From positions 5,073,001-5,137,000 of the forward strand of contig JAVTVX010000012.1 of assembly GCA_033439265.1 (NCBI GenBank): 64,000 bases of DNA. The letters are read 5' to 3'. The position numbers were made by a program, and so were the translations under genes. Below the pieces are notes generated by a model. The model searched no databases. It was not told where the DNA came from and was given only the letters and a program-made list of their open reading frames with translations. Positions within the stretch are counted from its first letter, which is position 1. Each line of letters starts with the position of its first letter. Source of the DNA: Dillenia suffruticosa (Eukaryota; Streptophyta; Magnoliopsida; Dilleniales; Dilleniaceae). Of this stretch, positions 1-42,505 are shown piece after piece.

Positions 1-663
1 ATATTGGTACTACTTAAGTAAGGATTCAAATTCGAGTTATGTGTATAAAAAAAATAAGTGTCGAGAAAGTTTTATTAATTAATGATCTAATCTAACTTAA
101 ACTGGGTTTAGTTCGGCCAATGTGGTTACCAGATACAAGTGTTTTATAATATATATATATATATATACATATATCAACTATATATTTCGATGCTCATGTA
201 AACTTGTTTATTTTTTTTGATATTATATTAACCGGTATTTGGAGTCATATTTCGAGTAATCTAGTTTGAAACTTGCAGTGACCCATTTAGGGAATTATCT
301 TCCTAACGTAGTCTGTTTCAATCCCAAATCGCAAGTCAAATTCGGGATCTTGGTTAAGAGATTTAGCGTCGTATCTTACTACGCCAACTGACCATTGGTA
401 TGTGAATTTGTTTATTCATAAACCATAAATCAACCCAATCTGTGGATCTAATGGTAAAGTACTAAATTTCCTTAACCAAAATCTCGAATTCGAATTTTGA
501 AAAAAAAAAAAATTGTTTAGAGTGTCAGTCCTTAAATTAGGGTTCATAATTAGTCGAATCAAATTAGTCGAATTTTCAAATATCGATTATTATGTACTAA
601 AAAAAATAAAGAAAGATTCAAGGTAACTCAACACAAACCGATACTCATCAAGACTTAATTATT
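1..663. other. AT-rich intergenic DNA with one SINE copy
   Basis: No coding region is supported here. The stretch is AT-rich with short (AT)n runs near 153-168. Its only recognisable content is a degraded SINE copy at about 209-400, listed separately. The last bases run into the left direct repeat that borders the LINE. Confidence 0.6.
209..400 (-). mobile_element. tRNA-derived SINE, degraded copy
   Basis: Read on the minus strand, this has a tRNA-like 5' part (box A-like CAGTTGGCGTAG, then a weak box B-like GAATTTGACTT). A body follows with GGGTCACTGCAAG and an AGATTACTCG-type stretch, then an A-rich tail seen as the T run at 211-218. It matches about 761-934, 11640-11812 and 56427-56624 by eye over the whole length. 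Similar size, order and A-rich end across separate sites indicate a SINE family. This copy has diverged at both boxes, so it is old. Confidence 0.6.
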
Positions 664-724
664 AAAAGACTTAGACTCAAACATTTTTTTTTGGATCAAG
701 CTCAACTTGGGTTTCAATAATTCA

Positions 725-727
<3 letters not shown>

Positions 728-764
<37 letters not shown>
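728..764. repeat. (AT)n microsatellite
   Basis: About 37 bp of pure AT alternation inside the left direct repeat. The other direct repeat has only a short AT run at the same place, which explains part of the length difference between the two copies. Confidence 0.9.
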
Positions 765-767
<3 letters not shown>

Positions 768-934
768 GTATTATATCGATCGGTATCCGAAATAATACTC
801 TAACTAATTTAGTTCAAAACTTGCAGTTACCCATTTAAGAGCGTTACCCTTTTAATATAGTTTTTTTCATACCTAAATTACGAGTCGAATTCAAAAACTT
901 GGTTAAGGATTTAGCACCACAACTATCCGTTGGT
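761..934 (-). mobile_element. SINE copy inside the left direct repeat
   Basis: Same family and orientation as 209-400. It has a mirror copy at 11640-11812 at the equivalent place in the right direct repeat, so these two come from one insertion that was later duplicated with its surroundings. Confidence 0.6.
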
Positions 935-1270
935 TCAATTTACATTTATGTGTAATAATTTAGTATGAATATAAAAATTTAATACAAATCGATCGGCTTA
1001 ATTTGCAAATTTAGTTTGTTTCATAAATGAGTTTTTTGGCCTCAAACCAAACTAATTTAAAATTATAACCTAAGGTTAAATTTTGATTGTTTAACAAAAT
1101 ATTTGTTACAAACTGATGAACGGATTATTTAAGTGGATGCGTTGTGTATTTTAGAACTCTAAAATTTTAGATTTGAATCCGATTAATAAAAATTATTTGT
1201 GCAAATATATATAAATATTTGTAGCTGTTTGATATTTCAGTGGTATTATAGTGATGGATTCATTTAGTTC

Positions 1271-1314
<44 letters not shown>

Positions 1315-1347
1315 ATGGATTCATCCCAAATTGAAGAAGCTCTCAGC

Positions 1348-1786
1348 AATGTTATTAAAATCGGACCGAACCGTCAGTTCAACCCTTCTTTTAATAATTT
1401 TGCGATTCGGTTGAATAAAAATACCATTTTACAATTGAACCAAACTGAACCGACGATTCAACCACGGTTCAACCGTGAACCGAGGTTGAGGGTTAAAACC
1501 TAAAATAATATTTTTTTTAAGATTTTTTTTTTAATTTCTATGAGACGTGAAACTATCAATTTTTGATATTATGATTTTAATTTATATTTTATATGACTTT
1601 ATAATTTAGTTATTTAGTTCTTAATTATCAATATGAGTTTTAAAAGTAATTATTGATTATATATATATATATATTTAATTATTATTAAAAAATTAACGGT
1701 TCGAACATATGAATCCACGGTCCAATCGGTTCAATCATATTTTTTAATTTTACGGGTCAATACACGGTACGATTATGATAACATTG
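1348..1786. mobile_element. Tag1-like hAT MITE, 439 bp
   Basis: The ends form imperfect inverted repeats: left CAATGTTATTAAAATCGGAC, right end reversed CAATGTTATCATAATCGTAC. They are flanked by an exact 8-bp direct repeat GCTCTCAG (1340-1347 and 1787-1794), the duplication size of hAT transposons. CAATG termini are typical of the Arabidopsis Tag1 group. There is no transposase inside; a 63-codon open frame covers part of it and is not a gene. It carries several GGTTCAAxCGG-like subterminal motifs. Removing one GCTCTCAG and the element gives continuous LINE 5' leader sequence, so it inserted after the LINE. Confidence 0.85.
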
Positions 1787-2142
1787 GCTCTCAGTAACAA
1801 CTCACATATCGGCCGGTGGCTTTCTCCATCTATGGAACCTGAGACAACAACTGAAGAAGACTGAGACAACAACTCAAGAAGAGGATCATCTGAAGTACCA
1901 AAAAGACTAAAGCAAATGGGGAGTCCTCGGGTTTCAATGCTAAACGTTCATTCAAAGAAATGTTATTGGGTCAAAGCAGTAATAGTCTTAGGATAGAAGA
2001 CAAATTTGAGTTTGACTCTGACTCTGATACAAAGTACCTAAAAGAAGAGGACCCAGAAAACCTCCCTGAGGCTTCGTCCATTCTAGAAATCAAAGTGTCG
2101 AACACTACCCTAAAAGACCTTTGGAAACCTTGAAAGAAGACC

Positions 2143-2690
2143 TTGATCATTAAACTCCTAGGTAAGAATATATGCTATTATCTAATGTCTATAAAAATAA
2201 ATCACATGTGGAGGCCAGAGAGTCCATTGGAGCTGTTGGACCTAGGAAAGGGATTCTTTCTCGTCAAGTTTGTAAATAGACAGGACTATGATCGTGTTCT
2301 CTCAGACGGACCATGGCTTATTCATGACCATTATCTGACTGTGAAAAAATGAAGACCTTGGTTTACATCAAAGGAGGAGAAGATCAAGTCGATTGTTGTG
2401 TGGATTTGCCTCCCCCATTTGCCGATTGAATTTTTTAATGAGGACATTTTGTCGAAATTGGGAAAGCAGCGGGAAAACCTATCAAAATTATTGCCAATAC
2501 AGCTAACGCAGTGAAGGGAAGATACGCTAGGATTTGCGTAGAGATTGATCTCGAGAAAGCATTGGTTCCGAGAATCAAAATCAGGAAAAAAATCCAGAGG
2601 GTTGAGTATGAAGGTTTACATGTCATATGCTTTAGCTGTGGTATGAAGTATGAAGGTTTAGGTGGGTCATAAATCGGAGGAATGTAAGGC
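2143..2690 (+). pseudogene. LINE ORF1 relic: DUF4283 and CCHC zinc knuckle
   Basis: Translation in shifting frames gives a nucleic-acid-binding ORF1 of the plant L1 type: MWRPESPLELLDLGKGFF, VKFVNRQDYDRVLSDGPW, then ICLPHLPIEFFNEDIL and a knuckle beginning CFSCG followed by GHKSEEC. DUF4283 followed by a CCHC_4 knuckle is the standard layout of plant L1 ORF1. The frame has an early stop after the VKK at 2349-2351 and a 12-bp-scale repeat at the knuckle (TATGAAGGTTTA twice, near 2608 and 2649). Confidence 0.75.
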
Positions 2691-3579
2691 TCGATGCGAT
2701 AAGGCAGAAGAGACTACAGTAGCGGAAGAGACGGGTGAGCCTGGGAAACAGTTCAACCCACGACGATTCCCATGGCGGAGAAAGAGGCGGAGCTTGGACC
2801 TTGGATGCTGGTCCAAAAAAGACAAAAAGTTAACAAGAATGGAAAGCTTAGAGATAAGGGAAAGAAAGAACTTACTGATATTAATCGATTCTCAAATCTG
2901 GAGGAAGTCAACGACAGTGTGTAGGAGGCGAGTGCGGAAGCGGACGAAGACAACATCATAAGCAGACTTGTTATGTTCCAGTCATCAGATTTGTAGAGAA
3001 ACCATACGGCTATGACGAGAAGAGCGTCTGGTAGGGCGGTAGATGGGAGTAAACAGATTATAGGAAGAAGAAAGGGTGGGACGATTTCCAAGGTAGCGTC
3101 AGGTTATGTTGAGAATTCCAAAGTCGGTGGTTCAAGGGACCCAATCCTAAATTTAAAAACAAAGACTACCCGTCTAAAGGCTTCGGGCATGGATGCGGCC
3201 CAATTAGAATCTGCAAACGATGGGCCTCAATTCGAAGCCGAAGACATGGAGAGGCTGGGTGAGCGGGAGCTTTTGGGCTAGATTCAATACCTCCTTCAAG
3301 TATGGCGGGACATGGGAGGAGGCCCAGTTAACTAATTTTAACTCGGGTCTGGCCTTCGATCCCGGCTACACGGAGGGCCCCAGAATAACTTAAAGGCAAC
3401 GATCGACTCCATGGTAGGGAAGGAACAGAGTATTGAAGTTCTTATGGGCTTGACCGACGTTCCAAGTGAAGAAAACAAGTCTGTAAGTGAGCTAGAGGAA
3501 GAGCGAGGGGATGGTATGGAGGTTCAATAAAGCTGCTTGCGCTCTTTCTTTCGATGTCTCCCTTTCAAATGAATGTAAA

Positions 3580-6500
3580 AATAATATCGTAGAACTGTAG
3601 GGGTGTGAAAAGCCCCAGCTTCAAACATGTTTGCAGGGATTTACTCTAGAGGGAAAGACCAGATGTTCTTTGCTGCTTAGAAACGAAAGTAAAAAATAAC
3701 TGCTTTCCGTCATTCATGAAGAAGTATGGGCTGAATGGTGAGTTCATCGTCCCTTCGAAGGGCTTCAGAGGTGGTCTCTGGTTATCTTGGGACAGCAGCA
3801 AAGTTAACTTATCGGTGATCCATCATAATAATCAGCTTATCCACTGCTTAATCAAGGATGCTCGTAGAAGCTGGTATTTGACCTGTGTGTACTGCCAACC
3901 CCACCTGAGAACCAAGAAAGCCTGCTGGAAGGAGTTAACTTCCATAGCAGACAAGTCCTTAGATAGTTATGGGGGACTTCAACGATATTGCAGGTACTAA
4001 CGAAACCAGCAGAATTTGTAATTCTTCTTGGAAAAGATTCCAAAGATTTAGGAACTAGTGGAATAAGTGCAACCTTATGGATATCAGATTAGTGGAGCCA
4101 AAATTCACTTGGATGGGAAAGAGGAAAGGTGGAATTGGGCTCTATCAAAAACTTGACAGAGCCTTGTGTAACTTGGAGGCTAAGCTGCTTTTCCCTAAAT
4201 TGAAAGTGCTCAACCTAACTAGACTCCATGGAGATCACTGTCCAGTTTGTTTGAACACTAACCTTCTTACCCCCCAACAAAAGCAGAAAGCTATTTAGGT
4301 TTGAAGTAGCATGGTTCTCCCACCCCAACTTCAATAAGGTTTTTACAGAAGCTTGGCGCAGAGAAGAGGGTCCGCTGGAGGCTGCTATCCACTCTACTAC
4401 TAAAGAATTAAAAGCTTGGAATAAATTTGAGTTCGACAACATTTTTCAGCGCAAAAGAGTGCTAAGGGTAGACTGAGGAACATTCAAAGAGATAAGAATT
4501 ACGGCCACTCGAAATACCTGCAGAACTTGGAATTAAATCTTCTGCAGAACTACCATTCAGTCCTTGAACAGGAAGAGACTTTTTAAAAACAAAGGTCCAG
4601 AATTAAATGATTGGTGGAAGGGGACAAAAATACCAAATTCTTTCATACTACAACTAAGATCAGAAGAAGTGCAAATAAAATTGCGGCTCTCAAAATAGGG
4701 AACAATTGGTGTTCGGATCAAGATGCCCTGAAGAGTAATGCGATTGCCTACTTTTCTAATTTGTTCTCGAGCAAGAAGGTTGCAGAAATGAGTGGTAGAT
4801 TCGGTGCTTAGAGAGTCAAAGTTATCTTAGAGGAGCAATAGGAGCTGCGCGGGGAATTTGAAGAGGATGAAGTTAAAAGAGCAGTATTTTCCATGGAAGG
4901 TTTGAAATCTCTAGGCTTAGATGGTATTTAACCTATCTTCTATTAAAAATTCTGGAGTACTGTGAAGGGTAAGGTTTGTAACTTCGTTAACAAGGCTCTT
5001 GCTGATGGGTATTTCTATCCGGTCATTGCCAAGACACTCATGATCTTAATCCCCAAGGTTGAGACCACCATTGACATGTCAGACTACAGGTCTATTAGTT
5101 TACTCAACACATCCTATAAGATACTTAACAAATGCTTGGTTTTTAGATTAAGACCTCTGTGGCAAAACATGATTGGAGCCCATTAGAAAAGCTTTCTTCG
5201 AAGTATAGGCACGCTGGAAAACGTGATCGTCCTCCAGGAAGTGATTCACACAATAAGACACTCTAGGAGCAAGACGCACGCAATGATTAACAAGATCGAT
5301 CTTCGAAAGGCTTATGACAATGTAAATTGGGAATCTCTGGTGAAGGCACTACTTGAAATCAACATCCCTATCAAGTTAGTGAAGTTGATCATGTTCGCAA
5401 TGGGGATACTTTTATCATTTGGAATGGAGGAATGCTCCCAACGTTTAAATCGGGTCAAGGTTTAAGACAAAAGCGACCCTCTGTCCCTTATCTCTTTCTG
5501 CTGGTCATGGAGAGACTTACACTTATGATTCAAGAGAAAGTTAGGAAGGGTGTTTGGAAAGCAGTTAAAGTTGCTAGAGGAGGGCCGGCAGGGATTATCT
5601 CATCTTTTTTTCGCGGACGACTTGAACCTTTTTGTAGAGGCAGAGCATCTCAATCTAAGCAATATCCTAGAGTGTCTGAGGGAATTTTCAAGGGAGAGTG
5701 GACTTCTAGTTAACCCCTCTAAATCTAAGATTTGGCTTTCTCCTAAGGCTCCTAGTCATCTTAAAGCCTCCCTTGCGGCCTATAGTAAATTTGCGGTTAC
5801 GAATAATTGGGGCAACTACCTCGGTGTGCCAACCATCCATATCAGAGTCAACAAGAATTTCTACCAGCAGCTTATAGATAAAGTGCAGTAGAAGTTGTGC
5901 AGCTGAAAAGCTAAGCTTCTAAACACAGTAGGAAGAAGAATGCTCATCCAATTGGTAACTGCATCGATTCTGATCTATACCATGCAGTCCACTTGGGTCC
6001 TAGAAAGTACTTGCAAAACTCTAAACAAGCTGAACATGGATTTCTTATGGGGAAGCAATGAATAGAAAAGAAAAATCCATCTAGTGAACGGAAGGTCATG
6101 TGTCAAGCTCAAAGGGACAGTGGTCTGGGTATGAGAAGCATGAAAGAATGCAATGTCGCGATGATGGCCAAGTTGGGGTGGTGAGTCTTGAAGGATGATA
6201 GGTCCTTGTGGGCTACGATGCTAAGAAGCAAGTACCTGAGGGGTGAAAACTTTCTTGATCATAAAAGAAAGAGTAACACTTTAGTTGTATAGAAAGGCAT
6301 CTATGCCAGTAGAGGGTGTCTTATCGAGGGTTTGAAATGGAGGATTGGGGATGGCAACTCCATAATTTCTGGTTCGACCGGTGGCTTGGTAAAAGTGTGC
6401 TAGCTAAAGTTGCATTGAGTCCGTAGGAGGTCGGCTCGACATCAACTAAAGTCAATCATTATTGGGATGAAAGAGGGAGATGGAAACTTGAGGAGCAGTC

Positions 6501-7470
6501 CTTAATTCTCCCCAGGAGCAAAATTGTAGAAATTAGAGCAATCCATATTCCTCAAGATAGGTCCAGAGGTGGCACATTGTATTGGAATGAGAAAGTTGAT
6601 GGAGAGTTCTCAGTAGCATCAACTTATTGGCTCCAAAAGAAGGAGGACCTACCTTGGTAGAGGAGTGATTAGAATTGGAATTGGATTTGGAAGATAAAAG
6701 GCCCTGAAAAAGTCAAGATCTTCTTGTGGTTGGCTATAAAGAGTAAGATCCTAACCAAATATGAGCTTAACAGAAGAATTGTGGACGATAACGTGTGTGA
6801 TATATGCAAGTTGGAGGAAGAAACATTGGTTCACGCTTTGAGGGACTATCCTCACGCAAGGAGTATTTGGAGGCGGGTGGCTCAGAACATTGGAGCAGTT
6901 GTTGGTTTCTGGTCTAAAACAGGGAGCAATTGGATTAAGATGGGAATGTACAGGAAGTTCCAGCTGGAGTTAGATGAAGAATAAGTGGGGTTTGCGCTGA
7001 TAGTTTAGAGCATTTGGAAATCAAGATGCTGTGTGATCTTCCAATAGAAGCTCAAAACGCCGCATCAAGTGGCTAATAGGATTTTATAATTGATCAGGGA
7101 GCTCACTTTTAGAGCTAACTGCATTAGAGATGAAGAGGAGGTGATTTCGGTGGCTTGGATCAAACTGCCCATAAGCAGAATTAAGCTAAACGTGGATGGT
7201 GGAGCTGAGTAGGGGGAATTTTGACTACTGCTGGTGGTCTCTTTAGAGACTGTGGAGGGAAGTGGCTCGTTGGAGGTCAAATGTGATTCGTTCAATGTAG
7301 TCGCAGCGATAAATAAGGGAGTTGGCAAAAATCATCCTTAGAGAAATATCGTGTTGGATTGCAGTGATATGATGAAAGATCTAAACATCTCTAAGGTCCG
7401 CCATGTATTCAGAGAGGATAACAAGAGTGCGGATAGGCTAGTAAAGTTAGGGAAAGCATCGTTTTTGGAA
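3580..7470 (+). pseudogene. LINE ORF2 relic: endonuclease, reverse transcriptase, zf-RVT, RNase H
   Basis: Ordered fragments of a plant L1 polyprotein. The endonuclease gives VLCCLETKV, GLWLSWDSSKVNLSVIHHN and the phosphohydrolase-type GDFNDIAGT when read across a frame change near 3970. The reverse transcriptase gives YRSISLLNTSYKILNK, INKIDLRKAYDNVNWESL and FFADDLNLFVEA. zf-RVT gives KSKILTKYELNRR and VCDICKLEEETLVHAL. The RNase H end gives VFREDNKSADRLVKLGKAS. Stops and frame changes recur through the region, so no product is expected. Confidence 0.8.
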
Positions 7471-7520
7471 CTGTAGAATCTTGCGGCCCTCCTCGGATTG
7501 TGGAGCCTTTGCTATTGCTA

Positions 7521-7528
7521 GATGTGGC
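7521..7528 (+). repeat. Left 8-bp target duplication of the hAT element
   Basis: GATGTGGC, repeated exactly at 11380-11387. Eight bases is the hallmark duplication of hAT transposons, and both copies are unmutated. Confidence 0.9.
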
Positions 7529-7539
7529 TAGTGAAGTAA

Positions 7540-7733
7540 CCGGGCCGGGCCGGGCCGGGCCCGGGCCGGTTCAATGACGGTTCAAGGAACCGCGGGCCGG
7601 GCCGGCAGCGGTTCCTAGGCCAGACCGGGCCGTGCCGGGCCGGTTCCAATTTTTTTCCTTGTGGAACCGGCCCGGCCCGCTGAACCGGAACCGGCGGTTC
7701 CTGGCCGGGCCGGTTCAGGGCCGGGCCCGGTTC

Positions 7734-7735
<2 letters not shown>
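7540..7735. repeat. Left CCGGG-rich subterminal block of the hAT
   Basis: Dense overlapping repeats of CCGGGCCGG and GGTTCC/GGAACC in an otherwise AT-rich window, immediately inside the left terminus. Clustered short subterminal motifs are usual transposase-binding regions in Ac-like hATs. The partner block at 11015-11370 uses the same words on both strands. Confidence 0.8.
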
Positions 7736-7774
<39 letters not shown>

Positions 7775-8089
7775 CTTTCTATTGCGTTTTTCTAAATTTT
7801 TTTCTAACTATATTTTTTAATTCCATTTTAATTTTATAACTCCATTTTTTTTTACTTTGTTTTTTTTTAATTAACTTTTGATAATTCACTTGTAATTAAA
7901 AATTAGAGACACAAGATTTTTAGAGTGGTTCCACCGAATTCGGTGTACGTCCACTACCAAGCTCATCACTTGGATTTTTAAATCCACTATTTTTTTTTAC
8001 ATTATTTTGATAATTACATCACTTTGATTTTTTTTTTCTATTTAAAATGACTTGTAAACAAAAGGAAAATATTAATATTATTATTATTA

Positions 8090-10114
8090 TTATTCTTCTT
8101 CTTCTTCTTCTTCAACTTCTTGTTCATCATCTTCCGAGGCTTTGATAATTCCTTGCATTCTTTTTTCTGCATCCTTCCAATCTTTAATGCATATTAAAGC
8201 TTCTAAAGTGTCGTCCGCTAAATTTGTACGTTTTTCGGTTAACACTCGACCACCTGCACTAAAAGCACTTTCGGATGGTACTGTAGATACCGGAGGGGTT
8301 AGTACATCTTTAGCCACTTGGGCCAAAATTGGATAATATGATGCATTATTTTTCCACCAACCTAATATATCATATAAATCTACATCATCAAAACCTTCTA
8401 ATCTAGGTGTTTGTTTATATAAAAGTAATTCATTAAATGATGATGAAGAAATTCTTTGTTTTTTTCCTAACATGTGTAAGGGATTAAATGAAAATGAAGA
8501 TGATTGAATACTATTACTACTACTACTAGCTATATTATTAGTATTTAAATTATTACTTTCCTTTTCATATAATTCAAATATTGATTGTAAAGTATGAGAT
8601 GTTTGTTGTTTTAAAAAATGTGGGTTAATAGACATTTCAGATGGAAAAGCTTGTGCAAAACAATCTATTAACATTTCAGCACCTTCAACCTTAACACGTG
8701 GATCTAATGCACTTGCAACTAAATATAAAATTGGAATTTCTTCATAATATTTTAAAAATTTTGTTTTCATTGAAAGAACAATTTCACCAAATCTTTCTTC
8801 ATTTTCAAATTGATTAAATACATAAATAATTTTACAAAGATTTGGTAGCATTAAATGAGTGGTTGGATAATAATATCCAGAAAATAATTTTGTACATAAA
8901 TAAAAAATTTCCAATAATTTTGTAAGTGTAGACGCAAATTCAAAAGCGGTATTATCAATAAAACCATATTCGTAATTTGAATTTGCAAATTCAATTAAAA
9001 TATTTTGAAAAGGAAGAACACCTTGTAACATGTCATATGTTGAATTCCACCTAGTGTCACATTCCATTTTAAATTTTTTATATTTTTTGTTATGTAAAAT
9101 ACATAATTGTCTCATTTCTTGAGTTTTTACAGCAGAATTTCTTATTTGATGAATTAAATCGCGAATAGGTTGTAAAAATAGTTCTCCCATTGCTAAACCA
9201 TCCTTAACACATAAATTAATTATATGACATGCACATCTAACATGAAAAAAAGCTCCATTTAAAATTGTTTTTAAAGAATTTTTTAAACTATTAACCGCAG
9301 TAGTATTAGCCGAAACATTATCAAAAGAAATTGAAAAAATTCTATCACTTATTCCATAATCATAAACAACATTTGAAATTATTCTAGCTATATGTGCACC
9401 AGAATGTGGAAATTCCCAACGTTGAAAAGCTAAAATTCTTTTTTGTAAAGACCATGAATTATTTATCCAATGACATGTTACTACAATATAATATTCTTTT
9501 TTATGCTCACTTTTCCAACTATCCGAAGTTAATGAAAATTTACATTGACTAGTCATAAATTCTGTAAGTATACCATTTTTTAATTCCTGATATCTATCTA
9601 ATGATCTCCTCCTACCGGATTTTTTACTACTTTTTTTATAACCGGGTTGTAAATATTTTTGGACATATTCTTCAAATACAGGACATGCAACTATACTAAG
9701 TGGTAATTCTTTTCTTGCTAGCCATTCTATTTGTCCAATTTTTTCTTTATCCGAATTATATTTAAATGTACCAATTATATTACCTCCCCCCGTAGAAATT
9801 TGTGTTTGTTTTGTTTGTGGTAATTTATCTGGATGATTATTAATTAAGTGTCTCTTAAGTGTGCCTACCCCCCAACCTTTTAAAAATTTATATTTTTGAT
9901 GACAAATTTTACAAATTGCTTTTTGTTCATCATTTTTTCTTTCAAAAAATGTCCATATATTAAAATCATTTTTTTTAGTTTGTGTTGTGTTAGATTCAGT
10001 GTTACTAGGTTCGGTTTCTTCCAAAAAAGTTTCAATATCTATATGATCGGGAATTTCAAAAAATGGAGGAAGAGGAGATTGTTGAGAAGATTGTGAAGAG
10101 TGTGTTCCGGCCAT
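8090..10114 (-). CDS. hAT transposase with BED zinc finger and hATC dimerisation domain
   Basis: A single open frame of 674 residues; cut-and-paste transposase acting in the nucleus on the element's ends. A BED-type finger lies at about residues 51-96 (C68, C71, H89, H94; KAICKICHQ and GTLKRHLINNHPDK). The RNase H-like catalytic core contains LTSDSWKSEHKKEY (first acidic residue) and FSISFDNVSANTTAVNSL. The C-terminal hATC domain has LYDILGWWKNN, VSTVPSESAFSAGGRVLTE and TLEALICIKDW. It ends in a poly-Glu run made by a TTC microsatellite. I chose the ATG at 10114 (MAGTHSSQSSQQ) because the in-frame extension up to 10294 is low-complexity and AT-rich, like a leader. Length and domain order are normal for the zinc-finger BED RICESLEEPER/Ac-like group. 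No stop or frame break is seen. Confidence 0.92.
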   Translation of the reverse strand: MAGTHSSQSSQQSPLPPFFEIPDHIDIETFLEETEPSNTESNTTQTKKNDFNIWTFFERKNDEQKAICKICHQKYKFLKGWGVGTLKRHLINNHPDKLPQTKQTQISTGGGNIIGTFKYNSDKEKIGQIEWLARKELPLSIVACPVFEEYVQKYLQPGYKKSSKKSGRRRSLDRYQELKNGILTEFMTSQCKFSLTSDSWKSEHKKEYYIVVTCHWINNSWSLQKRILAFQRWEFPHSGAHIARIISNVVYDYGISDRIFSISFDNVSANTTAVNSLKNSLKTILNGAFFHVRCACHIINLCVKDGLAMGELFLQPIRDLIHQIRNSAVKTQEMRQLCILHNKKYKKFKMECDTRWNSTYDMLQGVLPFQNILIEFANSNYEYGFIDNTAFEFASTLTKLLEIFYLCTKLFSGYYYPTTHLMLPNLCKIIYVFNQFENEERFGEIVLSMKTKFLKYYEEIPILYLVASALDPRVKVEGAEMLIDCFAQAFPSEMSINPHFLKQQTSHTLQSIFELYEKESNNLNTNNIASSSSNSIQSSSFSFNPLHMLGKKQRISSSSFNELLLYKQTPRLEGFDDVDLYDILGWWKNNASYYPILAQVAKDVLTPPVSTVPSESAFSAGGRVLTEKRTNLADDTLEALICIKDWKDAEKRMQGIIKASEDDEQEVEEEEEEE

Positions 10115-10355
10115 TTTATAAAAAAAAATTAAGATTAAAATTTTTAAAATAATATATACGATAAAATTTTTTAAAGGAAATTTAAAATTAAATTTTTTAA
10201 AAAGATAATACAAATGTAATGCAAATGCAAAAAAATAAATATGCAAAAAATAAAAAAATACCGATTTGACGAATACCGCAGTTGTTTTTCGCAAAATCTT
10301 GAATGAGCTCCCAACCTTGAAATCTTCTCAAATCTTGATTAATGTAGATAATGGG

Positions 10356-10760
10356 GTATAAGGTGATGAAATGGTGTAAATTTTGATGGAAATGGTGTAG
10401 AATTTAATGGAAATGGTAAAAAAATTGGTGTAGGTAATGTGGTATAAAAGAATAGAAATGGTGTAGAAATTGGTGGAAATGTAAATAATTGTGGAAATGT
10501 AGATAATGGAGAAAATGAAAATGGTGTATAAGGTGATGAAATAGTGTAAATTTTGATGGAAATGGTGTAGAATTTAATGGAAATAGTAAAAAAAATGGTG
10601 TAGGTAATGTGGTATAAGAGAATAGAAATGGTGTAAAAATTGATGGAAATGTAAATAATTGTGGAAATGTAGATAATGGAGAAAATGAAAATGGTGTATA
10701 AGGTGATGAAATGGTGTAAAAATTGATGGAAATGGTGTAGATAATAGTGTAGGAAATGAT
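10356..10760. repeat. 170-bp tandem repeat, about 2.4 copies, in the hAT leader
   Basis: The phrase GTATAAGGTGATGAAATRGTG recurs with AGGTGATGAA at 10361, 10531 and 10701, an exact 170-bp spacing, and intervening sequence is nearly the same in each unit. Each unit is itself built from shorter GGAAATGGTGTA-like words. It lies between the transposase start and the GC-rich end, where the promoter or leader should be. Long open frames across it on the minus strand are by-products of the repeat, not genes. Confidence 0.85.
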
Positions 10761-11014
10761 GGAAATGATATAAAAAATGGTAATACAAAGGAAATAATAA
10801 TGAGAGAATATAGTAATATTGAGAGAATGTAGATGTGAGAGAGAAAGAGAGATTTTGTTGTGGAAATTTTGGAAATGGGGTATAAGGTATTTATAGGAAA
10901 ATTTTTTGACCCTATGGACCAAAATAACCTCAAAAGTAGCCGTTTTATAGCTGTTGGGAGGGGTAAAATTGGAAAAAAAATTTCAAAATTCAAAAAAAAG
11001 GGGGAAATTTGAAC

Positions 11015-11370
11015 CGGAACCGGCCGGGCCGGGCCGGTTCCGTGCCGGGCCGGGCCGGTTCCGGGCCTGAACCGGCGGTTCCAGCAGGTTCAGGTCCGGT
11101 TCCGTGCCGGTTCCGGGCCCGGGCCCGGGCCGGTTCCGTGCCGGTTCCGGGCCCGGGCCGGTTCCGGTTCCGTGCCGGTTCGGTCCGGTTCGCTTTTCCA
11201 AACCGGGCCGGTTCCGGGCCGGTTCCCGGTTCAATTTTTTTTGAACCGGCCCGGCCCGCTACAGGACACGGTTCCGGGCCGGGCCGGTTTTACTGTAGCC
11301 TTGGGCCGGTTCCGGTTCGGGCTTGACCCGGGCCAGCCGGGCCGGTTTTCGGGCCCAAACCGGCCCGGTT
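11015..11370. repeat. Right CCGGG-rich subterminal block of the hAT
   Basis: About 350 bp made largely of GGCCGG, CCGGGCC and GGTTCCGT words, nearly all CpG-bearing. It is the counterpart of 7540-7735 at the other end, longer and with more variants of the repeated word. Frames running through it on either strand encode only Pro/Gly/Arg/Ala repeats and are not genes. Confidence 0.8.
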
Positions 11371-11379
11371 CCCAGTCTA

Positions 11380-11387
11380 GATGTGGC
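11380..11387 (+). repeat. Right 8-bp target duplication of the hAT element
   Basis: GATGTGGC, identical to 7521-7528. LINE 3' leader sequence resumes directly after it. Confidence 0.9.
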
Positions 11388-11552
11388 TGGAGTCTCCTGG
11401 ACTAGGAGAAGGAAAAAATCTATTTCCGCCTCAGACTAAGGTTCTGCCATCAATTTGTTACGGTTTTGTTCTTTCTGCTTTTGCTTCTTTCGGCCTCGTT
11501 GCGTTTTTGTTTGTTTTGGCTCTTAATCATCCTACACAAAAAAAAATAAAAA

Positions 11553-12153
11553 ATTAAAGGACTTGGGCTCAAACATTTTTTTTTGGATCAAACTCAACTT
11601 CGGTTTCAATAACTCAATTTATATATATATTTGATATTATATCAATTTGTATTCAGAATCATATTCTGATTAATTTGGTTCATGATTTGTAGTGGCCCAT
11701 TTAAGAGAGCTATTCTCCCAATATAGTTTTTTCCATACTCAAATCGCAAGTCAAACTCGGAAACTTGATAAAGAGTTTTATCATCACATACCACTAAACC
11801 AACTGTCTGTTATTTTAATTTATATTTATGTGTAATAATTTAGTATGACTATAAAAATTTAATACAAATCGAATAGCTTAATTTGTAAATTTAGTTTGTT
11901 TCATAAATGAGCTTTTTTGGGCTCAAACCAAACTAATTTAAAATTATAATCTAAGGTTAAACTTTGAACCGATTATTTAAGTGGATATTTTGTGTATTTT
12001 AGAACTCTAAAATTTTAGATTTGAATCCTATTAATGAAAATTATTTATGCAAATATATATAAATATTTGTAGCTATTTGATATTTCAGTGTTGTTATAGT
12101 GACGGATTCATTTAATTCACAAAAAAAAAAATTAGTGATGGATTCATCCCAAA
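11553..12153 (+). repeat. Right ~600-bp direct repeat bordering the LINE
   Basis: Same-orientation match to 664-1330. It starts directly after the LINE's A-rich tail (ATTAAAGGACTT) and ends with GATGGATTCATCCCAAA at 12137-12153, after which the two flanks diverge. It includes its own copy of the SINE. Confidence 0.75.
11640..11812 (-). mobile_element. SINE copy inside the right direct repeat
   Basis: Counterpart of 761-934, same family as 209-400 and 56427-56624. It was duplicated with its surroundings, not inserted independently. Confidence 0.55.
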
Positions 12154-12889
12154 CCGAATTGGGCTTTACGAAATACACTCAGAATATACAAGATATTGTA
12201 GTGACAACTATTATAAATTCCTTTTCCTTCCTTTTATATGCTACATTAAAAGGCTGTGAAAGGCAAGAAAAAATAACCAGCGTCACTGCGCCACCCTCTT
12301 GACATTATCCTCAAAGTTATCGATGAACAATTGATCTAATGAGATGAGATGATAGATCTCTTAATTAAGTTTGAATTTGAAACTAGGAATATAAAATATT
12401 ACGTCAGAAAAATAACTCCCTATATAAGGCTTCTACAGATATTTGAATTAAATTAATCAGAGTATGATTTTGGATATCGGTGATCTATAAAAAAAAAACT
12501 TTTATATTATCGGAGTTCTGCCTGCCATGAGGCTGGTTGAATTTTACAACCCTTTTACCTTACGTAGAAATGGAAGAAAAAAAGAAAAAGAAAAAACCTT
12601 ATTAGTAGAAAAGGTGGGTGGGGTCTGGACCGGGCTTTTAACTGGAGCGTAACCGAGCTCCCCACAACATACACGCCTACAATTTATAATGGGCCAACGG
12701 GCCTGCTGTTGAATGTCCGATATAAATTCAGGCCTAATCTGCACTGGCCGAATTAGTCCCAGGGCCTCACTAAATTGACAGTGAGCCAGACGGGCCGTGC
12801 AGGCCCACGATCAGGACTTAATATCCTCTCTCTGTTCAGTCTCCCCCAATCATCACCACCAACGTCTGAATTCTCTGAAACCAGCGAAA
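12154..12889. other. Intergenic DNA and DnaJ gene promoter/leader
   Basis: No gene seen. Composition becomes less AT-rich from about 12600 toward the DnaJ start, with GGGCC and TGGGCC/GGCCCA-type words near 12690-12805 that resemble the Site II promoter motifs of plant housekeeping genes. An upstream in-frame ATG at 12797 exists but is discussed under the gene. Confidence 0.5.
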
Positions 12890-15800
12890 ATGGCATCACT
12901 CATCGGACTCCATAGATGCCGTACAATTCTCTATTCATTTCTCCAATCAACTGCTTCATACAATCTCTTCTCCCATTCTCATTCTGTTCCTCAAAATAGG
13001 TGGTTCAGTCGCAGAGCTGAATTAGCCCCGAACGAATTCAGGGCGGTCGAAAATGCTTACGAGCTCTTAGGAGTCTCCGAAACCAGCTCCTTCTCCGAAA
13101 TCAAATCTTCGTTTCGCAAATTGGCTAAAGAAACTCATCCTGATCTCGCTAATTCGACGAATAACCCCATGGCTTCTCATAGATTTGTTCAAATTCTCGC
13201 CGCTTATGAGGTACTTCTTTTTCGAATTGTTTTGAATTATTTTTCTGTGGATTTAGTTTTGTAGAAGTTTGTATTTTTTTGGTGAAATTTTTTGTTTACA
13301 TGAATTCGTTTCATTTATGTAAGGGGAATTGCATGGTTGCGTTAGATATGGGTTTTTTGGGGGGTTTTAAGGTTGGATATACTGAGCTCCTATTTTGTTA
13401 AGGACTAGGGTTCGTATTTGTGGGGGAATTCTGGGAATTGAAGTTTAGATAGAAAAATTTTGAATTAAGTGACTAAATTTTATAATGTGGAAGGTTTTCC
13501 TGCTTGGTTAGAACATGGTCGAGAGGATTTTCACTTTCCAAACATGATGATAACATGAAGTGTGGGATTGGAATCTTCACATTTTCATTCCAAACATGAT
13601 GATAATTCATTACGGCTGTCTTGGAGCCACAGCAGGGTCTTCCTATTATAAAATTTTATTTGTAGTATAATTTTAATTCCCATCCCCCCCCCCGGCAGAA
13701 TCTATGAGAGTTGTTTTGGGGGGGGGTCCTCAGTTTAGTGCATGCCATTTAGCAGGAATGCACTGTTAACTTTTCGGTTTTATTACTGCTAGTTGAATTC
13801 CTTGTGGAATTCTAGCAGGCAGGCTAATTTTAAGGTCTTGGCTTCTTGCTCTTTATCCTTTGTATCTTAGGAAAATAATTAGAATCCCATGAGGCAACTC
13901 AACTTTGTGTTCGCATTCTTAGTGTCTGATTGTTGATTTATGGACTCAGTGCTTGTGTACATGCTAGTTTGAAATAAAATTGTTTACAAACCTATGAGAA
14001 ACTTTGGGTTTACTGCAATTAAGTCCCCACATGGTGTCCTCTCTTTAAATTCTGGGAAAACTTTTGTTTGTCATTGGTGTCATAATTGCATGTATTCATC
14101 AAACATTTTTTAAATTCATCTATCCAACTATAGTAGCTCTTTCTGTCTCAATTGGCTAGCATTTCTAAATCTCTTACTTAAACTCACTGGACTCTGAATT
14201 TTCTCCTAAAGATGAAGCGGACTATTGAGTGACCCTGTAACCCATCAGATCCTTTTGAGGAAAAAATGGCTTCTTGTTTCCTGATATTCTTAAGTTTGTG
14301 TTGTAATAGCAAGATCTTGATTTTCTGCAATAGATTCAAATACCCAATTTGTTCCATCATGGAAGTTTTGTGGGTAACTGAGAATGTTTCATTTTGATTG
14401 TCTTACTGGATTGGAAACAGAGAACCAGACTGCCTAGGTTAGCCCTTAAGGACTTTTGGAACTTCAGAGAAGGCCAGTCTAATAAATGCTGAAAAGTCTT
14501 GCTGCAATTTATAAAATTTCAGTTGTTGTTTCATTACTTGAATTATCTGATAGAAGATAAAATTTGTTCTTAAAATTTTGGTCTTGAGTGTGTTCACATC
14601 ATGCCTTTTCCATATTTTATTTCAAATTAATAAGTGAATAGATAACTTAGAATCACTGTTCTGATTGGGGGCCTTTTAATGCTTTCTTCTTTTGGTCTCC
14701 TATCAAAAATAAAAATTGGATTGATTGTATTGAATGAATAATTCTACTTCAAGTTAACCTTCTGACAGTTGACTGACTGGTGGATGGTTAGGGCTGATCC
14801 TCCAAATATGGACAAATTGCTTGCAAACCTAGCTAGTGTATGAAGGTAAACTTGCATGATTAGTGCCCCGTAAAATGTCTGTAGGATCAATAGCCCTTGC
14901 TTTTCGGAAGCTTTTCATGTGGTTTTGGTTTCCACAATATGAAAGATGATTACCTTCAAAATTATAAATTCTTTTAAGATTTCATTTATTTCGAAGTTGG
15001 TTAATTATAATTAGCATTGTTTTTTCTCTTCTTGTCTTTGGTAAGTTTCCTGTATTTATGGTACTATTATGTTTTATGAGATGTACAATTATGATCATTT
15101 TGTGGACAATAATTTGATGAAAATTACGGGCTTTAACTTACTAGTGATTCTAACTTCAAATGTAATAATTAATCCACTAGATTCTTTCAGATTCAGAGAA
15201 GAGGGCCTATTACGACAGGCACTTATTGTCTCAGAGAAGGCTTGTTGAAAAACATTCTGGAGAAAGCATGACATTTTACAGGTATGAATCTCATATGACA
15301 GCAACAAAGGAAATGGAAGTTGTTGAATGGTTAAAGTGGTACAGATGTGCAATGAGTAACATTCTATCAGAGAAGAAAATTGTTGTTGGGTCTAGTTATT
15401 TCAATGTCCTTGAGAGGGATTTCTATTCAGCCATACATGCGGCATATTTTGGTCCCATAATTGAGTCTATGGATCTTCTTCCTGATTGTTTTGAAGCAGA
15501 GGAGAGATCTGTTTATGGAACAAAAGAGGTCTTGCACTTGGTTTCAGGGCGTGATCTTTTTGGGATGATATGCCTTGTCAATGAAGTTCCAGAATTATCT
15601 TCTACCTGCAATCAAAAGTTGATTTCTTTTTCATCTATGGGCTCTATTATGTGTCAGTCAGTTCCTAATTCAAGCACCTATGGAAGTTCTAATGAAGCGG
15701 ATGGTGTTGATATATCCCATAACAAAACTGACCATGTGAACACTTACAAGTCAGATGCATATAAAGATTTAGAATTACATGTATCTGGGAGGGTTGTTGC

Positions 15801-26871: not shown

Positions 26872-27090
26872 TCTAAATTTTTTTTAGTATCATATCTTGG
26901 ATATCGTCCAGTATCTGGGGTTTTGCCCTGATTAATTTAGACCGACCGCTGCAGTGACTCTTTTCGGAGGACGGATCTCTTAACGGGGAACACTCCATAC
27001 ACATGAGGGCCGATGCTCCCAACGGGAGTCGAATCTCGATCATATTTAAGGTTACTCAACCCTACATCTAATTGAGTCAACCCACGTCGG
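26872..27090 (-). mobile_element. tRNA-derived SINE, second family
   Basis: Minus-strand reading begins CCGACGTGGGTTGACTCAAT (box A-like TTGACTCAATTAGA), then box B-like AGATTCGACTCCCG. A body follows with GAGTCACTGCAGCG, CTAAATTAATCAGGGC and CCCCAGATACTGG, then an A-rich tail (T run at 26873-26885 on plus). The 3' half (CTAAATTAATCAG then GATAC) resembles the 3' half of the 56427-56624 family although the 5' halves differ, as expected of plant SINEs sharing a 3' domain. Confidence 0.65.
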
Positions 27091-31000: not shown

Positions 31001-33452
31001 TCTTCCTCCTCCTCTCTTCCCCTATATGATAAATATGTGTTTTCACAATTTGATCCTTGTTTATTGAGTAAATTTTATAAATACATGTCTCTGCATGCAT
31101 ATACATTTGTCTGTAGGGTTGAGTTTGTATGGGCTCAGTTGCATAATTGTGCATGTGCAAATACAGACAAACAATGGCATGTCAAATATCTCACACTATA
31201 TTTTTGGGTTTGTAGAAATATGACAATGTGTTTTATGTATGTGTATACCCATGAAGTGCTTGCATTGTGAATGTTGGCAAGTTATGAAGCAAAAATGGAA
31301 AGTGGACATGGACATTGTGATAGAACAAATTTTGTAACAGATTGGGTATGGCATAGTTGGGAGATTGTCATATGAAGCTACATGTTGTTTACTGTGTCGG
31401 TAAATGATTTAACTTTTGGTGGTTTTTCATTTCAGGCATTCAATGTCTTGCGCTATGAGATTGGGCAGAGGTATCAATCTCATTATGATGCATTTCATCC
31501 TGCTGAGTATGGTCCACAAAAGAGCCAAAGGGTACATTCTTAGGTGTCTTAATATTTGAAATTTTACTATCAGTGAATTCTTGATATTTCCATAATAATG
31601 CTCATGACATCACAATCATCAGTCTTCATCTTCTGGTCAGTAAAATGTAGATGTCCACTGTGATTGTTCGAAGGTGTTTGCATTAGGTCCATTCATCCTA
31701 CCTGAACTGCTTGATCTTTCAATGATATTATGCTACCTTTACAATTCAATGAACAGGCAGGAAAAAAAAAATTATTCTTATTTTGAAAAGCAATACGTTA
31801 GTGAATTGGATATCTATTAGTGCAGTTCTATTAAATGGTATTATTATGTGACTGCCTTTGATATGCTGAATTTGAAATCACTTTAATGGCTTTTCATTAT
31901 TTACTTCAGGTTCTGTGTTTTCTGTGTCCCTGTGAACTTTGTTCTTCCTAATTAATATTCATTACAGTGAAATGTAGGAACGATTTTGATATTGAATTGA
32001 ATATTTGTAAAACATGAAACTTAGGATAAAAAAAAAAACAACAACAACAACAATCTGAGTCTTAATCCTAATGTTTGAGGTCGACCATTTGAGAGACAAA
32101 TTTGAAGAAGATAAAATATATATAAATATATAATAGATGAATAAAATAAAATAAAAACAAAAAGAAAAAGAAAAGTAAATAAATAAATCAATAGATAAAT
32201 ATCTAAAATATATTAGTTTAATTTGTGTGGATTCTTCTATGCCACTCATTCCTATCCAAGATCATTTCATTTTCTAAATCTTTAACTTCCATGTCTTTAT
32301 AAATAACTTGCATCCAAGTTTTCAGCGGTCTATCTCTTCGTTTTATTAGATCTCTCATATTTAAGTTCTCGGTTCTCTTAACCGGTGTATCTTTGAGTTT
32401 TCTTTGCACATGTCCGAAGTATCTCAAACAACACTCTCGCATCTTATCCACAATTAAATTAACTCCTATTTTGTTACAAATCTCTTCATTTCTAATTCTA
32501 TCTCTTCTAGGATAAAAAAACATAAACATAATTTTCTGCAATTAGGATTACTTTCTTAATTCATGTTCTCTTTGTTGATTTAGAAATAGAATTTTGATGT
32601 CCAAACTTAAATTCTTTTTCCAATTTTGGGATATGAATAAGGCCCCATGTGACTTTGTGATTGACTTTGTTATTAAGAAAAAATTGCGTCAGACCATGTC
32701 CGTGCAATATATCTTTATTCTCTCCAGCCTATCTTATTATCCTGCATCAATCCAGACTAAGGATTATGTTTATTGATGTAGATATCGCTATTTATGTTCA
32801 CACAGGTTGCTTCATTTTTATTGTATTTAAGTGATGTAGAAGAAGGTGGAGAAACCATGTTTCCTTTTGAGGTAACATAGCATATATGTTTAGAATCAGA
32901 TTGTTGGCTTAGTTACTTTGACAGCCTCAATGCCTGTGGTTATATTCTATGACCTGCAGAATGGTGCATTTATGGATTCGAGTTATGACTTTAAAACATG
33001 TATCGGATTGAAAGTGAAGCCGCAGAAAGGGGATGGGCTTCTATTCTATTCAGTGTTTCCAAACGGTACAATTGACGAGGTAATATTGTATCCATTATCA
33101 CTGTCATCTATCCATCATGAACCCCATTGTGTTTTGGGCACTTATTCATTGACCAGGTTGTTACGTAGAAATTGGTAACTTGTGCATCTGCTAGTCACTG
33201 AATAAAACCTGAAAGAAATTAAGGAACTCAGCTGGGAGGGGGAGTTTGTAGTGCATCTTCAGAATGTGTCAAGTGGGGTAGATTGAAAGGAAGTGAGGCT
33301 TGGAAATCATCTAATTGTTTTTTCAAATTTTTCTCCAAGTTGTCAATAATCGCCAGGTCATATGTTCTATTAGAATCTACACACCTTTAATATATGCTAA
33401 TCATAAGATGTAGTCATTTCAAAGCACATTGTATTGTGCACAACAAACTTCT

Positions 33453-37900: not shown

Positions 37901-40631
37901 AGATAAATTTATATTGCCCATACAAAGTCCAACCACAAAATTTACATCACAACACCATGACATTGCATATACTCACTCTAAAGAGATGAGCAATATCACA
38001 AGGTTCTAGGTTCAACAACTAGAAATGATATAATCGCATTTGCAAAAGGAGTCTGCAAAAGAACTCATCACAAAAGTAGAAGATAATACACAAGGTGAAT
38101 AAAAAATATTGGAACATAGAGAGACCTAGTAACTTTCTGATAAACATAAAAAGTTATTACATCTTGGAGTAACTAGATACACAAGTCAAACAATGTTTTA
38201 AAGAAGTAAGACGGTGTTAATTCTTGATGTTTTCGTTTTGGTGCACCATAAAAAATTTGTTGCATTATCAACAAATGGTATACAGGCTTTTCAGTCTGGT
38301 GATTCTTACCGCCTATAATGTATGTGTAGAAAGAACATCTGTACTCCTTGAATGATGCTGCTTGTGAATTATCTGTCCATCCTTTCTTGATGCATATGGT
38401 ACCCACAATTGCCAGGACAATTGCTGCAGTTGAGGAATTACTTATAATTTTGGCATCAACACCAATCAGCCAATTTGCAAGAACTTGGCTTCCAATCAAA
38501 GAGGCGGACTCAAAAAAGGTCATCAGCCAAAACATTTCATTCAATCCATCTTTCCTGTGCCATCGCTGGAAATTTTGTGAAAAGGAAAAGTATCTTTCAG
38601 TAACAAACCAATGCAGCAATCTCTGTCCGAAATACTGTAGTCATTAACAAACAACATAGCAATCTCTGTATGATTTAATATAGTCGAAGTGTCATTAACA
38701 GTGGCAGATGTGAAACCCGCATTGACTATTTGAATGTAGGAAATTTTAAAATCATGTTCCAAACACTTGAACAAACTTGAACAGAGGGGTGATGAATAAT
38801 AAATCACGAAACAAACCTTTTCATGCTCAATAACCATCCATGTCTCAAAACTGAATGCATATGTTGAAGTGGCGAGAGACAAACATATATTTGCTACCCA
38901 AGCACTTGGCTGCATGGTAATCCTCTTCCACACACCAACAAATAGGTGCAACATGAAAAAGATGATAGAAGTTTTCCTCTGACCCCTATGAATAAACATA
39001 ATGGAAATTTATTAGAGTTTCTCATGCCTTTGGAGCTATCATAAAAAACAACAAGACCACCACTCACTCTATTTGCACTTGAACATCTAAAACTTCTTCA
39101 TATAGCACATGATACACAATGCAGCATCCCAAGAAACAAATCATCAAACTTATGAATTAGCTAGTGTATTCAAATTCACAATCAATTCAGCAAAAAACTT
39201 AAGTTCCTTATTAATTAAACCAACTTAAAGTTTAAGGGTATTTTTGATAAACTAAAGGCTATATGTTAAATTTCAAGTATCAAAAAGTTAAAATATGTGA
39301 ATTAACACAAAAAAAGCTTAAACTAGGTTTTTTTGACCTTTGTAATAATGAATTTACGGTATTCAGTAGTTTTCACAATGTAAAATCAAATCCTGAATAT
39401 CAAACGTATGCCAACCCTTTCTATTGTCAGTTATAAACCAGATCTTATATGGTAGCACAAGTTTAAGGTTTGTTCTTCAAACTCAATCTTTCAGCATATG
39501 CTTTACTCTAGTATGAATAGATTCTATAATTCTAAATAGGGCAAGACTTCAGCATAAATCTTTTGGTACAGACCTTCCGATTATCATTTGTTTCATTGGT
39601 CGTGTGCTACGTGTCACGTCGTACTCTAAAAGATTTGTGCTAAGTGTACCAAAATATCTCCACTAAAGTTGTTGTATCCTTCTAATTAATGTTGTTGATC
39701 CCAGTGACAACAAAAAATAGGGGTTGAATTAGTTGTTTTTGATTGGTTTTATTTTTTAATCTAATTCCACTTAAATTCAAAATAATCCCATGGTTATTCT
39801 AAATATATGCAGCAGAAGATAAAAGTAAAGGATAGATAAATAAGCCAAATTTTATAATGGTTCAGCCTGTGTCTACCTCCACTCTTCCAAACAACAAGCC
39901 GGGATCTAACAATTTGTTAGTTTTCCACTATGATGAAAAGTTACAAAATATAATTCAAATTGTTGACTTTTGATCTTCTTTAACTTGAAGATGCCTTCGT
40001 CCAACCAAAAAAGACTCGCAACATTCACCAAACTATCTCACACAACTCACTGCACAACACAACTTGGGCTGTTCAAGTAGCCATTTTCCAGAGTGAATAT
40101 CTCACTCCAAAAATGTCGAAATAGCTCTGTAAAAATTGCTAAATAATCTCTGTATATCAGACTTTAAATCCCTGAAAAGATCCCTACAAAACTAGTCAAC
40201 ATCGTGAAAATATATATACCCAAAGTTGGCTTTCCAGCAAGTTTTTCAGCAGTAAGTCTGGTAACTTCCTAATTTGTAACACAAAAATCTATCAAGAATT
40301 CTTGAGATTTTCCGATTGTTGTAATTCAAATTTGAAATTTGAATTTCACTCTTAACATTTATAAACTTTAACTTGAATTTTCAGTCTTCAAAAACCTGCT
40401 ATAATAGAAACAAAATTAGCAGCCAAAGATAAGTAACTTTCTTAAAGAATGTCCTAATTTGTAGGTTGAAACTTCTCCTAATTTCTTGAGATTTTCTGAC
40501 TGTTGAAATTCAAATGTGAAGTTTGAATTTCACTCTTGACATTTATAAACTTTATAATAACAATAACAATCTGAACCTTAAACCCAATATTTGGAGTCGG
40601 CCATTTGAGAGACAAATTTAAAAAAGATAAA

Positions 40632-40669
<38 letters not shown>

Positions 40670-42505
40670 GATAAATAAAATAAAATAAAAAGAAAAAGAA
40701 AAAGAAAAAGAAATAAATAAATCAATAGATAAATATCTAAAATATATTGGTTTAATTTGTGCGGATTCTTCTGCGCCATTCATTTCTATCCAAAACCATT
40801 TTCTCTTTTAAACCCTTAACTTTCATATTTTTATAGATAACTTGTATTCAAGTTTTCAGTGGTCTATCTCTCTCCCATATTTAAGTTCTTGATTCTTCTA
40901 ATCGGTGCATCTTTGATTTTCTTTGCACATACCCGAATCACATCAAACGACACTCTTGCATATTTTCTATAATTGAACTAACTCCTACTTTGTTACAAAT
41001 CTCTTCATTTCTAATTTTATCCCTTCTAGTTTTTCCACACATCCACCTAAATATCCTCATTTCTGCTACGGTCATCTTTTGCTCTTGTTGTAGTTTAATA
41101 GTTTGGCATTCAATACTATACAATAGTGTAAGTCTAATCGTGATTTTATAGAACTTTCCCTTCCAATGCAATTGTATCGTGCGATCACGAAGAATTCCAG
41201 ATGCCTTTTCCATTTCATCCAATCCTGTTGAATCCTATGGTTCACATCTCTATCTATATTACCATCATTTTAAATGATAAAACCTAAATATCTAAATCGA
41301 TCACTTTTTGGTATATCTTGTCAATCTAACGTAATCGTTTTTTTATCATTCTGATAACTGTCGCTAAACCTACATATCATATATTCGGTTTTCGATCGAT
41401 TCAATCTAAACTCTCTAGATTCTAGTGTATGTCTCCATAACTGTAGTTTAGCACTAACGCTCTCCCTAGTTTCATCAACTAGCACTATATCTCTTATTTA
41501 AAATTTTCTGATTGTTAAACTTTGCTGAAAATTCAAATTTTTTTAGAAAATCAACTTCTGAATATACCTCATGCTTGGAATGATTGAGTGACCAGTCAAC
41601 TTTGCCCACAATTTTCTCCAACTTATCCTCGAGCTTTTAATACTGTTAATATTTAAATTTATAATCCTACAAACCTTCTTTAATATGCAATTTCTGAATT
41701 TGAAAAAATTTGATCATACAAAAAGATATAACAAACTGAATAATGATTATCTCAATCTTCCTAGAAAATTGCCAAATTTTATGGACTTTGAAATTTCTCA
41801 TCCCAAATTTGATTTTCAACTCTTGAATTATCGAAATATGTATCTGAACATGTCTTTGGACTAAGTGTAGTACTCAATTTATACTTAGATTGCTGAATTG
41901 GATCTTCAATTAATAAAAAGAATTTCTGCCTCTATAACAGTCTCTATGATCCAAGATAATTTGCCTCTATGGCATCCTCTATAGCAACTTTTATGCAACT
42001 TTTATGTGAATTTCCAGACAATTGCACACTTTGTAAAAATGTTAGAACAATATGAAAGATTTTATTATCATCAAAACCAAAGGGTTCGACAACAATTTCC
42101 CTAACAAATACCATCACCATTGTTGTTAAAAACTAATTGTACTTGTAATTTTACAAAATTTCCAACTGATTTGATTCAAAATTTCGTAAAATCCCAACTA
42201 GAGTCTTTGATTCTTTCAACTAATCAAGTAAAATCCCATGGCCATTACACACAATGTTGGTTCCAAATTCAGAAGTAATTCGTTCATTCATTAACCATAA
42301 AGGACTGCAATTTGCAAAAGAAAAATCACTTACATTATATCAGAAAGAATGCCTAAGAAAGGAACAATAACAAAAGCAGCTAAAATTCCAACAGAGAGAT
42401 ACACCACCATCTGCTCTCTACTAACTCCATGCAAAGCCAGCTCAAATTCTCCAAACACCGACCACACACCTTCCATTACTGAATCAACAAAACAAAGAAA
42501 CAATT

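Follow-up and report, generated by a model that had tools for sequence, protein, structure and literature searches.

The 64,000-nt window of contig JAVTVX010000012.1 from Dillenia suffruticosa (the whole stretch of DNA that was analysed) contains near its start a decayed L1-type LINE between two long direct repeats, termed here left (L) and right (R). Both repeats carry a SINE, and two DNA transposons are nested in the LINE. The plant-type ORF1 of the LINE and the presence of hAT and SINE sequences mark the window as probable plant nuclear DNA. The features are listed in Table 1. The initial annotation had described two same-orientation repeats at 664-1330 and 11553-12153 that bound the LINE, and BLASTN, shuffled sequences and limits set at base level all bore this out.

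Table 1. Features of the LINE locus (positions within the window; TSD, target-site duplication)
Feature	Position	Strand	Remarks
Long direct repeat, left copy (proposed left TSD)	661-1335	+	secure to 1330, possibly to 1335
tRNA-like SINE in left repeat	760-949	-	nhmmer; own imperfect ~12-bp TSD (TTCAATTTATAT-like), flanks read by eye
L1-type LINE, decayed	1336-11552 (or from 1331, with a repeat end at 1330)	+	10,217 bp including nested elements, ~5,910 bp net
440-bp MITE in LINE 5' leader, probably hAT-like	1347-1786		TIR CAATGTTAT; TSD GCTCTCAG at 1339-1346 and 1787-1794
LINE ORF1 remnants: DUF4283 and possible zinc-knuckle fragment	2134-2669	+	Pfam
LINE ORF2 reverse transcriptase remnants	4947-5888	+	RVT_1, Pfam
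LINE ORF2 zf-RVT remnant	6673-6981	+	PF13966, E 1.6e-14
3,851-bp hAT transposon	7529-11379	-	TSD GATGTGGC at 7521-7528 and 11380-11387
LINE 3' A-rich tail	11538-11553	+	AAAAAAAAATAAAAAA; last A ambiguous with repeat start
Long direct repeat, right copy (proposed right TSD)	11553-12158	+	secure to 12153, possibly to 12158
SINE in right repeat	11626-11829	-	nhmmer; position and imperfect TSD as in left repeat, flanks read by eye

The LINE belongs to the L1 type, with RVT_1 and zf-RVT matches in ORF2, a plant-type ORF1 with DUF4283 and a 3' poly(A) tail. The combination of a DUF4283 ORF1 with reverse transcriptase (RT) and zf-RVT in ORF2 is typical of plant L1s. Pfam matches were obtained for six of the eight LINE pieces submitted. 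The two matchless pieces were 1894-2130 and 3650-3997; the latter was the single piece at the expected position of the endonuclease and showed no Pfam family at E 0.05. In ORF1, DUF4283 (PF14111) was detected in 2134-2349 with an E value of 1.2e-9, above the Pfam cut-off, while the weak end of DUF4283 (PF14111, E 0.01) and zf-CCHC_4 (E 0.034) in 2442-2669 were both below their cut-offs. All three RT pieces matched RVT_1 with E values of 7.9e-4, 1.6e-6 and 4.4e-8, the last of which alone reached the Pfam cut-off. In ORF2, a frame-path script that used no reference LINE counted 27 stops with 5 frame shifts, and in ORF1 12 stops with 1 shift; the final stop in each of these counts may be natural. 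After removal of the MITE, the hAT element and one TSD copy of each, the LINE has a net length of 5910-5915 bp, in agreement with the ~5.9 kb given by the initial annotation. It is full-length-sized, a term that refers to its size alone and not to the 5' ends of other copies.

The MITE and the hAT element are each flanked by an exact 8-bp target duplication. On account of the length of this duplication the MITE is probably hAT-like. The hAT element has GGCCGG-rich ends and contains a stop-to-stop transposase frame of 745 codons (minus strand, to 10327) with BED, hAT-like RNase-H and dimerisation domains; it was possibly active recently. A minisatellite with a 170-bp unit, whose neighbouring units are 95% identical, lies within it at 10347-10741.

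When 1-2500 was compared with 10501-13500 by BLASTN, four same-strand matches were obtained. The strongest one paired 661-1275 with 11553-12123 (484 of 630 columns identical, 523 bits, E 4e-151) and was extended by a short match at 1310-1330 with 20 of 21 identical positions. The third, at 216-409 with 95 bits, is a separate SINE copy apart from the long repeats, and the fourth, at 1574-1610 with 36 bits, is A/T-rich. When the left copy was dinucleotide-shuffled 500 times, no score against the right copy went above 39.2 bits.

The limits of the repeats were set by global alignment with base-by-base checks. At the 5' limit, position 661 of L (ATTAAA) pairs with 11553 of R. The A at 11553 is indistinguishable from the end of the A-tail of the LINE, and L and R hence start at 661 or 662 and at 11553 or 11554, respectively. 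At the 3' limit, the certain part ends with CCCAAA at 1330 in L and 12153 in R; five further bases, TTGAA in L (to 1335) and CCGAA in R (to 12158) with two C/T differences, may be homologous. The duplicated stretch is thus ~600-675 bp long; AT-microsatellites together with a few indels account for the length difference between its copies. R begins directly at the A-tail and L ends 0-5 bp from the leader of the LINE. Direct repeats of more than 100 bp therefore adjoin the element at its A-tail and at its 5' end, and the earlier placement of the left repeat's end at the LINE leader and of the right repeat's start behind the A-tail holds to within ~5 bp. The two signs that had been named beforehand as speaking against a long TSD, namely repeat homology that enters the LINE or that stops far from its boundaries, were both absent from the alignment.

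The left boundary falls within TTATTAAAA, a sequence that includes TT/AAAA (663/664), the word cut by L1 endonuclease. The initial annotation let the left repeat begin exactly there. The word is indeed present, but the repeat homology runs past it by 2-3 bp upstream, and TT follows the A-tail in the right copy. Either the nick was 2-3 bp off the canonical TT/AAAA, slightly upstream of it, or the tail happened to end in TT.

The pair could in principle represent the LTRs of a non-autonomous LTR retrotransposon (LARD/TRIM) that was entered by the LINE. A same-orientation pair with an A-rich tract ahead of the right copy would look like this, and an exact 4-bp outer repeat, AATT, is present near the repeat ends. 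Yet the repeats run from ATTAAA to CCCAAA (or CCGAA) and not from TG to CA, no sequence between the repeats and the LINE is left over as an internal domain, and 79% of 2,000 shuffles gave one or more such outer 4-bp matches. The LTR origin is highly improbable on these grounds; the initial annotation had already described it as fitting poorly.

The two copies are 86% identical when two AT microsatellites are left out (471 of 546 positions). Identity reaches 93% outside the SINE (351/378) and 71% inside it (120/168, pairwise alignment). An assembly duplication was ruled out as source of the repeats by the 27 of 378 non-SINE sites that differ and by several indels. Within the long repeats, at 1251-1324 and 12099-12147, a 12-13-bp direct repeat (GTGATGGATTCAT-like) surrounds a very short stretch with an A-tail, which may be a minute retro-insertion truncated at its 5' end; in the left copy the tail reads (AT)n.

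On the plus strand, the flanks 412-660 and 12159-12800 showed only matches of at most 28 bp to the repeat unit, with E values of 0.011 or worse, and the sole longer upstream relative was the SINE part at 201-411. On the minus strand, a SINE-like copy was matched at ~12327-12476 (E 3e-8), and two weak upstream matches were found at 459-493 and 505-537 (E 2.5e-4 each), both within or near the weak SINE-like hit at 464-612. The second of these is a weak inverted match to the start of the left repeat (505-537 against 661-692, 27/33, E 2.5e-4), possibly driven by A/T runs. A tandem array of the unit was ruled out, as a third unit is absent from the flanks 412-660 and 12159-12800. For the same reason, it is scarcely credible that the unit represents a satellite or dispersed repeat with the LINE lying in an array of such units. 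Part of it is dispersed, with same-orientation copies at 201-411 and 56426-56634 and three weaker hits elsewhere, but this portion is the SINE only, whereas the listed matches above 60 bits within the 64-kb window include no other copy of the remaining ~400 bp.

From its box sequences, we regard the SINE as tRNA-like. With a model based on four copies (those in L and R, 201-411 and 56426-56634), these four were recovered as well as three weaker hits at 464-612, 12322-12489 and 26875-27081. Three of the five further SINE-like hits are close to the LINE locus. Since both repeats hold the SINE at an equal position with its own ~12-bp TSD, the SINE predates the duplication, and the coincidence of site and imperfect TSD in both copies indicates the duplication of a single ancestral stretch. 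That the SINE entered two existing copies of the unit independently was ruled out by the identical insertion point and the shared imperfect ~12-bp TSD (assessed by eye).

The divergence between L and R was much higher inside the SINE (K2P 0.388, 168 sites) than outside (0.076, 378 sites), which corresponds to 29% and 7% difference, respectively. The excess consists mostly of transitions. Of the sites bearing C:G, 36 of 70 in the SINE and 19 of 103 outside had changed (Fisher p 6e-6), in a test that left out seven indel-edge columns (913-919) holding one transition and four transversions. This pattern points to decay of methylated cytosines. Transversions were not significantly enriched without the seven columns (7/161 in the SINE, 8/378 outside, p 0.16) but were in excess in the SINE with them (11/168 vs 8/378, p 0.019). 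If this excess is real, methylation decay gives no account of it. We choose to attribute the additional transversions, along with the low SINE identity of L and R (see below), to misalignment beside the indel together with a duplication soon after the SINE burst, and not to separate origins; the result on transversions bears on the divergence of the SINE and not on the boundaries of the repeats.

In a six-copy alignment, the SINE parts of L and R were 76% identical. Independent copies were hardly less close, with 69-71% identity among the four best, and the informative sites of a four-copy comparison were split into 11 for grouping L with R and 9 and 7 for the other groupings. Therefore, the SINE sequence alone barely reveals the common descent of L and R. 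It is shown instead by the shared SINE insertion point and TSD and by the 93% identity on either side.

The decay of the LINE was estimated from codons susceptible to C:G transitions (stops plus the remaining CAA, CAG, CGA and TGG). Mutated codons accounted for 39 of 146, or for 37 of 144 once the two stops that may be natural are set aside, that is 26-27%, an upper bound because all stops are assumed to be single C:G transitions. For the SINE pair, the decay per copy was ~26% (36/70/2). As the value for the LINE lies in the range of the SINE, the LINE and the duplication may be of one age, although this comparison is rough in setting codons against sites and assuming equal methylation.

In target-primed insertion, the TSD is the stretch from the first nick to the second-strand break, and L1-type elements usually duplicate 10 to 20 bp of their landing site. 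The ~600-bp repeats at this locus probably constitute one giant TSD that arose from the target-primed insertion of the L1-type LINE with a second-strand break ~600 bp away; we assign this reading a probability of roughly 0.8. A long TSD had also been preferred in the initial annotation and gains support from the fact that both limits meet the LINE ends and that no separate short duplication was found. The first nick, made by the LINE endonuclease, would have fallen on the bottom strand of the A/T-rich site, at ~661-664, and the poly(A) RNA would have been reverse transcribed from the nicked end to full length. The top strand would have been broken ~600 bp downstream, just past CCCAAA, instead of 10-20 bp away, with a chance nick or a repair-processed gap as the likeliest source of this distant break. 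The strands between the breaks would have parted, and fill-in of both single strands would have doubled the stretch including the resident SINE. At present, the diverged repeats lie directly outside the 5' end and the A-tail of the LINE, its frames are broken and two DNA transposons sit inside it.

An ordinary short TSD was not found. The only word of at least 6 bp common to 1300-1360 and 11530-11600 was ATTAAA, and its left occurrence in this comparison sits within the MITE, a later arrival. This bears on the alternative of an earlier ~600-bp tandem duplication, with subsequent insertion of the LINE precisely where the two copies meet. Such duplications are common, the end sequence would look alike, and the 93% non-SINE identity is silent on which event preceded. 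The LINE would, however, have had to hit within ~5 bp of the junction in some 1,200 bp, for which we estimate odds below 1 in 100, and to leave no TSD of its own. With an ordinary TSD of 7-20 bp, the LINE would be preceded by sequence of copy 2 or its tail followed by sequence of copy 1, and neither was found. A preceding tandem duplication is accordingly improbable.

Still less probable is an L1 insertion in which template-switch or break-induced repair copied ~600 bp of flank across the element without a staggered cut and fill-in. The final sequence would be identical, and distant or repair-derived ends have also been suggested for human long-TSD insertions in the accessible text of PMC5223499. 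Neither junction, on the other hand, shows an inserted scrap, inversion or deletion requiring such repair, and this route is a variant of the staggered-break explanation that is inseparable from it in one fossil copy.

Long TSDs are documented for human L1. The initial annotation had set L1 target duplications at normally under about 20 bp; very long ones have already been reported in human cells. According to the portions of Servant et al. (PMC5223499) at hand, the median length of L1 TSDs was 1,495 bp (range 5 bp to 5.3 kb) in NER-deficient human cells, as against 14 bp (range 2 bp to 1.6 kb) in complemented cells. In earlier HeLa work cited there, TSDs above 100 bp never exceeded 10% of events, and its Discussion calls second target-strand cutting by L1 poorly defined. 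As in Dillenia, the human long-TSD insertions have direct repeats of hundreds to thousands of bp and mostly an A-tail, and a distant second break was proposed for them. They are fresh, engineered elements of ~2-4 kb from NER-deficient and, less often, other cultured cells, whereas the present LINE is an old, full-length-sized, natural plant insertion (same source, same portions). In a human-chimp survey, only TSDs of 5-30 bp were admitted (PMC2912911, in the part available).

In plants, the Sadhu retroposons of Arabidopsis thaliana, an example of ordinary non-LTR insertions, resemble the present element in their A-tail and in a TSD tending to start with A after a T-containing nick site, and show TPRT-type empty sites, but they are non-coding and their TSDs measure 7-16 bp compared to ~600 bp here (PMC2848041). 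Plant L1-clade LINEs share the poly(A) end (PMC3747384); the size of its flanking duplication sets this LINE apart. Dicot retrocopies have been described with the L1-like hallmarks of A-tail, TSD and a TTAAAA-like site (PMC4838847). Among the matches listed in a literature search of titles and abstract openings, whose scope lay mostly outside subscription journals, there was no plant LINE with a TSD above 100 bp, and the accessible sections of PMC10191854, PMC10741241 and PMC12458276 held nothing further on TSDs of hundreds of bp. Thus, the long-TSD mechanism is already known from human cells, and what is new is a natural, old, full-length-sized plant case. If a long TSD has arisen naturally outside mammals, insertion with a distant second break would not be limited to human cells in culture or with deficient repair, and its product could persist, here as a scar in a plant chromosome.

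It is a rather unlikely, speculative extension that plant L1-type LINEs leave TSDs of hundreds of bp fairly regularly and that these are missed when TSDs are sought only up to ~30 bp. If true, small tandem-like duplications would steadily arise from such insertions, and second-strand cleavage in plants would not be tied to the LINE endonuclease.

Elsewhere in the window, a ~480-bp direct-repeat pair at 32040-32510 and 40556-41029 is 81% identical and 8.5 kb apart. It was not counted as a second giant duplication, since the two members resemble 3' fragments of an RTE-like LINE on the minus strand and neither a TSD nor an LTR pair. A 107-aa minus-strand frame at 32218-32541 presumably resembles an RTE-like LINE; a Pfam search of this frame gave no match. 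The window further contains a frame with a DnaJ domain at ~12.9 kb and one with an ACBP domain at ~48 kb.
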